Shown here one piece after another: positions 10,049-12,610 of a stretch of DNA of 64,000 nt (position 1 is its first letter; every line of letters begins with the position of its first letter). This DNA is from an uncultured Treponema sp. (GTDB taxonomy: Bacteria; Spirochaetota; Spirochaetia; Treponematales; Treponemataceae). A program made the translations under genes and the position numbers. The stretch is from assembly GCF_946187725.1 (NCBI RefSeq), contig NZ_CAMHSK010000005.1, forward strand, positions 62,001 through 126,000, read 5' to 3'. Below the pieces are notes generated by a model. It worked only from the letters and a program-made list of their open reading frames with translations, made no database searches and was not told the DNA's origin.

Positions 10049-10699
10049 TCATAATTCACTATTCAAGCAAATGTCGTGAATTATGCAAATTCCGCACTTT
10101 GGACTTCGGGCTGTGCAAACATAACGACCATGCAGAATCAACCAATGATGTGCATGTTCCATGAATTCATCCGGAACTCTCTCTAAAAGTGATTTTTCAA
10201 CTTTTTCCGGAGTATCACCCTCTGCAAGTCCGATTTTCGGAGCGATTCTGAGTAAATGCGTATCCACAGGCATAGTATGCTCACCCCAGACCACATTTAA
10301 GACAACATTCGCCGTTTTTCTTCCAACACCACTCAGACTCATCAAATCTTCTCTAGAACGAGGAACTTCCCCTCCAAAATCAGAAATAAGCTTTTCACAA
10401 AGAGAAATTAAATGCCTGGCTTTTGATTTATACAATCCAATAGATTTTATATAAGGAATTACACCGTCTTCACCAAGAGCAAGCATTTTTTGTGGTGTAT
10501 CAGCAATCTTAAAAAGTTCCTTTGTAGCAAGATTTACGCTTTTGTCCGTTGCTTGTGCTGAAAGAACAACAGCCACCAAAAGAGTAAATGGAGAAATCCA
10601 ATTCAGCTCAGATTTTGGCTCTGGGTTCTGCGCCTTAAAACGAGAAAAAACTTCAATGATTTGTGATTTAGAAAGCAGTTTCTTCATTTTCATTCCCAT
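10049..10699 (-). CDS. nth: Endonuclease III (DNA glycosylase/AP lyase)
   Basis: Endonuclease III removes oxidised pyrimidines and nicks the abasic site. The protein has the helix-hairpin-helix LSGVGRKTANVVL with the catalytic lysine, the catalytic aspartate in MPVDTHLLRIA, and the iron-sulfur loop C-X6-C-X2-C-X5-C at the C-terminus (CTARSPKCGICIIHDIC). Length 216 is normal. Three ATGs are packed together (10699, 10693, 10687); the true start is uncertain, and MKKLLSKSQIIEVF from 10687 would give the conventional N-terminus. A TAAAAT box overlaps the first ATG, which favours one of the later two. Confidence 0.93.
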   Translation of the reverse strand: MGMKMKKLLSKSQIIEVFSRFKAQNPEPKSELNWISPFTLLVAVVLSAQATDKSVNLATKELFKIADTPQKMLALGEDGVIPYIKSIGLYKSKARHLISLCEKLISDFGGEVPRSREDLMSLSGVGRKTANVVLNVVWGEHTMPVDTHLLRIAPKIGLAEGDTPEKVEKSLLERVPDEFMEHAHHWLILHGRYVCTARSPKCGICIIHDICLNSEL

Positions 10700-10754
10700 T
10701 TTATCACATTTCTTTCAGACATGCATATTTTTAAGAAATAAAACTAAAAAAAGA

Positions 10755-10783
10755 TTCAAAATTCCGCCTTCATAAAGTATAAT
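10755..10783 (+). promoter_or_regulatory. Promoter that predicts a leaderless mRNA (guaD-like gene)
   Basis: TTCAAA (10755-10760), a 17-base spacer and a perfect TATAAT (10778-10783) lie seven bases before the ATG at 10791. There is no room for, and no sign of, a ribosome-binding site. Confidence 0.6.
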
Positions 10784-10790
10784 ATTTTCC

Positions 10791-11243
10791 ATGAACTACA
10801 TGCTTGAAGCTATAAAAGAAGCTTACGATGGAATCAACAACAATCACGGAGGTCCTTTTGGAACCATAATCGTGAAAGACGGACAAATCATCGGACGAGG
10901 TCACAATAAAGTTTTACTTAACAAAGATCCAACATGCCACGGTGAAATGGAAGCCATTCGCGATGCTTGCAAACAAATAGGCACTCATGACTTAAAAGAT
11001 TCAATTCTCTACACAACTGCTGAACCATGCCCTATGTGTCTTGGCGCAATTTTATGGGCAAACATAAAAGATGTAAGGTTCGGCTGCACCGTTATGGATA
11101 CTGATAAAATTGGTTTTAGAGACGATGAATTTTATAAAAGCTTTGAAGGAAAAAATAAAAACTTCAGTCTAAAGGAAGAAAACAGAGCAGAGTGCCTTAA
11201 ACTCTTTTCTGATTATGAAAAACTAAATCGTGAACGATACTAA
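10791..11243 (+). CDS. guaD: Cytidine/deoxycytidylate-deaminase-fold nucleoside deaminase, probably guanine deaminase
   Basis: The zinc site is complete: CHGEMEAI (His and catalytic Glu) and PCPMCLGAI (two Cys). The overall text (GGPFGTIIVKDG, GHNKVLLNKDPTCHGEM, ILYTTAEPCPMCLGAILWA) and the C-terminal tyrosine match bacterial GuaD, which turns guanine into xanthine, better than the tRNA deaminase TadA. Length 150 is right for GuaD. The gene stands alone, read from a leaderless promoter, and shares a bidirectional terminator with metK, which it faces. Confidence 0.78.
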   Translation: MNYMLEAIKEAYDGINNNHGGPFGTIIVKDGQIIGRGHNKVLLNKDPTCHGEMEAIRDACKQIGTHDLKDSILYTTAEPCPMCLGAILWANIKDVRFGCTVMDTDKIGFRDDEFYKSFEGKNKNFSLKEENRAECLKLFSDYEKLNRERY

Positions 11244-11263
11244 CAAACGGTAATCAATCTTTA

Positions 11264-11300
11264 AAGTAAAAGGCGGGTAAATTTTACCCGCCTTTTACTT
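11264..11300. terminator. Bidirectional terminator between guaD and metK
   Basis: An 18-bp perfect inverted repeat, AAGTAAAAGGCGGGTAAA (11264-11281) with its complement at 11283-11300. The GC core GGCGGGT/ACCCGCC is flanked by A- and T-rich arms, so it can serve both converging genes. Its right arm touches the metK stop codon. Confidence 0.85.
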
Positions 11301-12481
11301 TATTTTACAGCAGCTTTCAATTCTTCAACTTTATCAGTCTTTTCCCAGCTGAACCCTTCGCGTCCGAAATGTCCATAATTGCTGGTTGCTCTGTAAATAG
11401 GTCTTCGCAAATCCAAAGTTTTTTCTATACCAGCTGGTGTACAATCAAAAACTTTTTTTACAGCTTCAACAATTTTCACTTCTTCTACCTTTCCTGTGCC
11501 AAATGTCTCAACCATAATCGAAACAGGATGAGGAACTCCAATTGCATACGAAAGCTGAATTTCTGCTCTGTCTGCAAGCCCAGCAGCAACAATATTTTTT
11601 GCAATATATCGAGCCATGTAAGCTGCAGAACGGTCAACTTTTGAAGGATCTTTTCCAGAAAAAGCACCGCCTCCATGTCGTCCCATGCCACCATAAGTAT
11701 CAACGATGATTTTTCGTCCTGTCAAACCAGCATCTCCATGCGGGCCTCCGACTACAAAGCGTCCTGTCGGGTTAATATAATATTTTGTTTCGCTGTCCAA
11801 GAGACCTGTCGGCTCAAGAACCGGCTTTACAATTTGCTCAATGATTGTCTTCTTGATTGTATCATAATCAACATCAGGATTATGCTGATGACTAACAACA
11901 ACTGCATCAATGCGAACAGGTTTATGATTCTCATCATACTCAATTGTAACCTGAGATTTTGAGTCCGGGCGAAGCCATGGAATTGTTCCGTTCTTTCGAA
12001 GTTCAGCAGCTCTTTTGAGAATTTTATGAGCATAAATCAGCGTCGCAGGCATGAATTCAGGAGTTTCATTTGTTGCGAAACCGAACATGATTCCCTGATC
12101 ACCAGCTCCCTGCTGTCCTTCGTACTCTTTAAGGCCGCTTCCGACAACACCTTGATTTATGTCCGGCGACTGATTGTGAATTGTGTTCAAAACAGCCATT
12201 GAATCTGCGGAAATACCGAAATCTTCGTCTGTGTAACCAATGCCACGAACTACATCGCGCACGACTTTCTGAAAATCAACATCTGCATGTGTTGTGATTT
12301 CACCACCAACCAAAACCATACCGGTCGTAGCATAAGTTTCGCAAGCAACATGAGAAGATGGATCAGCTTCAAGGCATGCGTCAAGAATAGCGTCAGAAAT
12401 CTGGTCACAAAGTTTGTCAGGATGACCTTCGCTTACTGATTCAGATGTAAAAAGATAGTGATTGTTAGATAAGATAGACAT
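11300..12481 (-). CDS. metK: S-adenosylmethionine synthetase
   Basis: MetK makes S-adenosylmethionine from methionine and ATP. Signatures are [19 protein letters not shown] (residues about 18-36), the ATP-binding [10 protein letters not shown], and the P-loop-like [19 protein letters not shown]. Length 393 is normal. The ATG at 12481 follows AGGAG by six bases, and that ribosome site is part of a SAM-II-like riboswitch immediately upstream, so the enzyme is probably repressed by its own product at the level of translation. Confidence 0.97.
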
Positions 12482-12487
12482 ATAAGT

Positions 12488-12560
12488 CTCCTATTTAGCA
12501 AGATTTAGCCGCCCATACGGGCAAGCCCACCAGTCTGCAAGTTGGATAAATCAACTGGTT
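12488..12560 (-). promoter_or_regulatory. SAM-II-type riboswitch in the metK leader
   Basis: Reading the minus strand, ACCAGT (12559-12554) pairs with ACTGGT to form P1. The loop reads GATTTATCCAACTTGCA, matching the SAM-II core GATTTA-CC-N4-TTGCA with the same length. The 3' part reads GCTAAATCTTGCTAAATAGG, aligning with the SAM-II pseudoknot strand (R-TAAAT-N3-GCTAAA-N-AGG). A small extra hairpin GCCC-GTAT-GGGC sits between P1 and the pseudoknot strand. The metK ribosome site AGGAG is at the 3' end of the pseudoknot strand, the arrangement needed for SAM-dependent translational repression. Identified by eye against remembered SAM-II sequence. Confidence 0.82.
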
Positions 12561-12581
12561 GCGGATATAATTTCATAATTG

Positions 12582-12610
12582 AATATAATGCAAATCTCTT
12601 GAAATGACAA
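12582..12610 (-). promoter_or_regulatory. metK promoter
   Basis: On the minus strand, TTGTCA (12610-12605) and TATATT (12587-12582) are 17 bases apart, each one mismatch from consensus. Transcription would begin near 12575, giving a leader of about 94 bases that contains the riboswitch. Confidence 0.7.

Follow-up and report, generated by a model that had tools for sequence, protein, structure and literature searches.

The leader of metK in the window (the whole stretch of 64,000 nucleotides analysed) contains a conserved and covarying RNA element, which is homologous to SAM-II and has a fixed place on the ribosome site of the gene. In the best reading of the sequence comparisons, it represents a spirochaetal branch of the SAM-II/SAM-V superfamily that is missing from Rfam and was not found in the papers searched. 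It probably functions as a cis-acting, translational OFF riboswitch of this superfamily that controls metK, a reading to which we give a probability of about 0.9; SAM as the ligand, the OFF direction and the detailed contacts are its predicted parts.

The element lies on the minus strand from nt 12559 to 12488 and consists of P1, a SAM-II-type loop (GATTTATCC-AAC-TTGCA), P3 and the 3′ strand GCTAAATAGGAG (nt 12499–12488). Downstream of the promoter, the minus strand reads ACCAGTT-GATTTA-TCC-AAC-TTGC-A-GACTGGT-[GGGCTTGCCCGTATGGGCGGCT]-AAATCTT-GCTAAA-TAGGAG-ACTTAT-ATG. The parts are as follows.

12582–12610, minus strand: promoter TTGTCA-17-TATATT, 10 of 12 consensus bases
12553–12559, minus strand: P1 5′ arm ACCAGTT, read from the sequence, with P1 covariation in relatives
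12547–12552, minus strand: GAUUUA third strand; U12550, U12549 and U12548 are U10, U11 and U12 of metX SAM-II (contacts after PMC6061858 and PMC11508383)
12544–12546, minus strand: P2a 5′ strand UCC, partner of the GGA of the ribosome site (12491–12489)
12536–12540, minus strand: P2 pseudoknot 5′ strand UUGCA, whose last position (12536) pairs with 12500
12529–12535, minus strand: P1 3′ arm GACTGGT, from sequence and covariation
12507–12527, minus strand: P3 hairpin GGCTTGCCCGTATGGGCGGCT with a GUAU loop, from folding of the segment and 39 copies
12488–12500, minus strand: P2/P2a 3′ strand U-GCUAAAUAGGAG, including the metK Shine-Dalgarno, from sequence and from homology to L058 and L074 as aligned by RF00521; within it, by the same homology, U12497 is the predicted SAM adenine contact and A12494 the predicted aminoacyl contact
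11300–12481, minus strand: metK, S-adenosylmethionine synthetase, 393 aa (Pfam PF00438, PF02772, PF02773)

The ATG of metK is at nt 12481–12479, and all three S-AdoMet_synt domains (N, M and C) are detected in its product. The original prediction described a near-consensus promoter just upstream of the leader, P1 arms ACCAGT/ACTGGT, a hairpin GCCC-GTAT-GGGC, and a 3′ strand that matches the SAM-II pseudoknot strand and holds the metK ribosome site, and each of these was found. The arms form the six-pair Watson-Crick part of a stem that reaches seven pairs (ACCAGTT/GACTGGT) with a terminal U.G, and the hairpin lies within the longer P3. The loop enclosed by the U.G pair indeed measures 17 nt (GATTTATCCAACTTGCA), but the spacer between CC and TTGCA is three nucleotides (AAC) and not the four first described. 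The sequence GGAG stands immediately 3′ of GCUAAAUA, and its GGA is complementary to the UCC of the loop. A TTGnnn-17-TATATT-like site precedes P1 in most relatives. A scan for terminator-like sites found no intrinsic terminator in the leader.

The folding energy of the window leader is ordinary against background (z -0.52). Since the single-sequence fold gave no signal, a comparison with relatives was needed, and it is this comparison that argues against chance, as dozens of relatives form P1 and P3 from different bases. The metK gene was located in 92 of 98 related genomes, and 95 leaders were compared, 94 of metK (a few genomes supplying two) and one of ahcY-metK. The same element is present in 56 of the 95, before metK or ahcY-metK. 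The pattern used in collecting the copies demanded GA[T/G]TT, TTGC and GCTAAA, and left P1, P3, P2a and the fifth P2 pair free. The invariance of the P2 core (UUGC, GCUAAA) therefore comes partly from the pattern, and four of the five P2 pairs carry no covariation evidence.

The 56 copies display 14 distinct P1 5′ arms, with forms such as CCAGTT/GACTGG, TCCGTT/AACGGA, CCCGCC/GGCGGG, AATGCT/GGCATT and ACCGCC/GGCGGT. In a model-free comparison the P1 stem has 5.86 pairs on average, against 4.21 (maximum 4.71 in 500 trials) when the arms are mispaired between sequences. A MAFFT alignment placed the P1 3′ arm one base off in the copies with an extra G or A; structure parsing and a model-fitted alignment were used instead. 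A model, R1, was trained on 28 spirochaetal copies and includes no structure other than P1. Alignments based on R1 are biased towards P1; in the model-fitted alignment of 74 sequences used for covariation, 95.6% of cells are paired overall and 97.6% in P1, and all six P1 pairs show changes on both sides. Double-change cells over the structure number 88, versus 25.5 in shuffles, and none of 500 shuffles reached any of five covariation measures. Sliding the partners by 1–3 columns lowers the pairing to 36–53%.

The fifth P2 pair (12536/12500) is A-U in 36, G-C in 11, G-U in 7 and C-G in 1 of the 74 sequences, and unpaired in 19. Both the six P1 pairs and the pseudoknot pair A24-U41/G24-C41 covary, and the compensatory changes that the original prediction demanded in relatives are clearly present. 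In P2a, 93.2% of helix cells are paired; each of the two C-G pairs with the Shine-Dalgarno GGA is kept in 72 of the 74 sequences, and the outer pair is broken in 14. The P3 segment of the window folds at -11.7 kcal/mol (z -3.0). A P3 segment of at least 20 nt occurs in 39 of the 56 copies with a mean z of -2.9, its letters varying while the stem is kept, and its loop is often CGUAUG among relatives. P3 is absent from L009, L010, L013, L033, L058, L074 and L083–L090.

Assignment to a family by the standard library gave a divided answer. At the curators' cut-off, Rfam has zero matches in the 64 kb window, and in the 501 bases around the leader no SAM family appears at E up to 10; weak matches to mir-1422 and snoR130 near the element are due to chance. 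The SAM-II model RF00521, on the other hand, weakly matches the element in relatives. When RF00521 was run blind on the 98 whole genomes, 8 of the 9 best matches, and 9 of the best 13, lay directly upstream of metK or ahcY-metK. Its alignments are in register, residue by residue, at the GAUUU strand, UUGC and GCUAAA-AGG. No match in the 98 genomes reached the gathering cut-off of 36 bits, the best spirochaetal copy scoring 30.0 bits, and the element fails formal SAM-II membership at that cut-off. In the opposite direction, R1 recognises the alphaproteobacterial L128 with 45.5 bits, an element that RF00521 accepts as SAM-II with 42.6 bits, and it matches SAR11 SAM-II-like elements at 53–54 bits.

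The anatomy contains SAM-II features: P1 closing a loop with GAUUUR and UUGCA, a UUGCA/GCUAA pseudoknot whose bulged U is the expected contact of the SAM adenine (a sequence in all copies), and P2a between the loop and the sequence 3′ of GCUAAA, here as UCC/GGA. It also contains SAM-V features, namely a P3 stem-loop 3′ of P1 in 39 of the 56 copies and P2a on the Shine-Dalgarno. The contact residues of SAM-II are described in PMC11508383, and those of SAM-V are U8, U9, U10, A18, U19, U20, U47, A48 and A50 (PMC6061858). Their counterparts by alignment are U12550, U12549, U12548, C12541, U12540, U12539, U12497, A12496 and A12494. The sole differing contact is the counterpart of A18, which is C in the window and in the Rfam consensus, and A in 50 of the 56 copies. 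Based on the RF00521 ranking, the cross-detection by R1, the contacts and the P3 and P2a traits, the element is most aptly described as a SAM-II-type RNA carrying a SAM-V-like P3.

An assignment to SAM-V in place of SAM-II was weighed against this, and we consider it unlikely. A P3 in the same place and a P2a on the ribosome site are traits of SAM-V (PMC6061858). However, among the matches listed, the metK leaders of relatives are picked out by RF00521 and not by RF01826; P2 has one extra pair yet falls short of the full SAM-V set; and P3 is missing from several families (L009, L013, L033, L083). The stretch from U12 to the base before UUGC is 6 nt in 42 of the 56 copies, including the window, as in the metX SAM-II sequence. 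The same stretch is 7 nt in metY SAM-V (numbering of PMC6061858). As SAM-II and SAM-V share the binding core, the border between them is partly a matter of naming. The treponeme copies with and without P3, in three gene layouts, are natural material for asking whether the two are one class.

Compared with SAM-II (RF00521, SAM_alpha; metX, PDB 2QWY), the SAM-II-type element has the same P1, GAUUUR strand, UUGCA/GCUAAA core, metX loop length and contact residues, and the same association with methionine and SAM genes. It differs in having P3 in most copies, in its place before metK or ahcY-metK with a predicted translational control, in scoring below the Rfam cut-off, and in a P2a of 3 pairs made with the Shine-Dalgarno, where most SAM-II have about 5 pairs (PMC6061858). 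With SAM-V (RF01826; metY) it shares the H-type pseudoknot core, P3 beside P1, the short P2a on the ribosome site and the translational OFF model; in contrast to SAM-V, the loop is one base shorter in most copies, P2 is shorter, P3 is optional and longer, the host is spirochaetal, and RF01826 is blind to the element. The extra stem that had been predicted is present but not entirely novel as a feature, since SAM-V carries a P3 in the corresponding position (PMC6061858).

Betaproteobacteria also have SAM-II-like elements that contain a small hairpin and are not called by Rfam (L111 5928–6125, L108, L110, L145, L179 and others). They resemble the treponeme element in the short loop, the small hairpin between P1 and GCUAAA and the GGAG in the 3′ strand, but have a long P2 (GCCGC/GCGGC) and often stand near SAM-I/IV riboswitches. 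Several are close to such a riboswitch, and L111 is a direct tandem; tandems of SAM-I/-IV with SAM-II have been reported (PMC9481103).

A mechanism can be proposed by homology. In the absence of SAM, P1 and P3 would be formed and the AGGAG ribosome site would be free. In its presence, the GAUUUA strand would occupy the major groove of P2 (UUGCA with U-GCUAA), SAM would sit between U12497 and A12494, its sulfonium beside a U-A.U triple, and P2a (UCC with the Shine-Dalgarno GGA) would be locked, leaving metK untranslated. Because metK makes SAM, such a switch would be feedback repression of translation, that is, product feedback on SAM synthesis. For SAM-V and the translational metX SAM-II, it was proposed that SAM stabilises the P2 triplex and closes P2a over the Shine-Dalgarno (PMC6061858), and the treponeme anatomy has the same arrangement. 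The gene logic (metK, ahcY-metK), the lack of a terminator and the ribosome site within the pseudoknot speak for the riboswitch reading as a whole. For the unbound state, an alternative helix GAUUUA/UAAAUC, perfect in the window, was considered and rejected; by eye, copies with GAGUU retain AAAUC or AAAUU and lack the matching change, and the helix has no covariation support.

The same fold may bind a changed ligand, such as SAH or both SAM and SAH. The gene ahcY is first in the operon in L090 and L268–L270, and GAGUU replaces GAUUU in 10 of the 56 copies (L025, L035, L046, L060, L083, L085–L089), a change in the base layer contacting the SAM adenine, so that ligand preference might differ there. 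Nevertheless, the window and most copies keep the SAM-II contacts, including both uracils beside the sulfonium, and an OFF switch on metK suits SAM better than SAH, which makes a changed ligand quite improbable. It is barely credible that the element, which does abut the start codon and whose binding of SAM is a prediction, is a conserved site for protein binding or autoregulation or a mere extended ribosome site instead of a ligand-binding RNA, given its SAM-II core, spacing and pseudoknot, the covarying P1, the kept P3 stem and the detection of an Rfam-accepted SAM-II by the spirochaete-trained model.

The SAM-II-type element is widespread in treponemes. Across the phylum, R1 has matches in 57 of 393 genomes, which belong to 23 of the 167 genera, and within the treponeme genus in 123 of 200 genomes, usually once per genome. 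A SAM-II-type switch would thus be carried by about 60% of the sampled genomes of this genus while unseen by the standard library, and annotations consequently lack one branch of the regulation of SAM synthesis. Named records with the pattern, among the matches listed, include Treponema bryantii, T. zioleckii, Treponema sp. JC4, many Betaproteobacteria and SAR11. The original prediction expected a spirochaete copy to widen a class best known from alphaproteobacteria; SAM-II had already been reported from Bacteroidetes and from alpha-, beta- and gammaproteobacteria (PMC2704228, PMC2258182). Riboswitches have been called rare in spirochetes (PMC2258182). In the literature searched, which covered few subscription papers, no report of SAM-II in Treponema or spirochaetes was found, and priority is not claimed.

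Families f3 and f4 show three layouts: the element directly on metK, the element on a short ORF followed by metK, and the element on a short ORF followed by ahcY-metK. The short ORF has 22–34 codons and stops near or across the metK start in L013, L015, L017, L025, L033 and L058; a similar one of 18–35 codons precedes ahcY-metK in L090 and L268–L270. Counted from the G of GCTAAA, these ORFs begin 17–20 nt downstream, as metK itself does, and their peptides are not conserved, which suggests that they may be translationally coupled to metK or ahcY. The metA SAM-II of S. meliloti likewise requires a Shine-Dalgarno of its own for translation that begins at a distant start (PMC9373788).

Other metK leaders were noticed in treponemes. 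Some of these genomes (L068–L073) have a second metK paralogue, about 62% identical, whose leader has no element. A different conserved metK leader (GCGGACGCGCTCGCCACATGCC...AGGAG) occurs in treponemes without the SAM-II-type element (L018, L019, L021, L036; L309–L319), in 11 of 200 genomes. Rfam gave no convincing match for this leader, which is possibly another regulatory RNA.

Secondary, weaker R1 matches precede sigma-70-family ORFs in five genomes, that of the window included, as candidate elements. In the same genome as the window, a candidate SAM-II-like element (G000:C25:16301-16372, minus strand, L223; 26.9 bits, E 0.0047 with R1) directly precedes a sigma-70-family ORF (10580–11296, minus strand, L274). 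It shows P1 GACCGC/GCGGTC, P3 CCAGA/TCTGG and GCTAAAAGGAGG, followed by ATG. It is a tentative proposal, to which we lean somewhat less than even odds, that the spirochaetal branch both bridges SAM-II and SAM-V (with the SAM-II core, an optional SAM-V-like P3 and the Shine-Dalgarno as P2a) and also precedes sigma-70-family and other non-methionine genes, which would let SAM determine a transcription programme. If the copies before sigma factors are real, they would connect SAM with the control of transcription.

Other sigma-70-family ORFs with similar candidate elements are in L323, L325, L326 and L328. At three sigma loci (L323, L326, L328), the element is separated from the sigma ORF by a small ORF and by another pseudoknot-like motif, the identical GGCTGTTTTATAGCACCTACTTAGCAGCCATAAAAAATAAAGGGGG on the ribosome site; the motif also occurs in L339. 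It had no Rfam match and is present in only 4 of 196 genomes. We take it to resemble the preQ1-I pseudoknot. Similar candidate elements precede HTH/WYL regulator-like ORFs, ORFs of unknown family and AAA ATPases (L254, L257, L258, L260, L264, L324, L330), and L324 has two elements about 230 bases apart.
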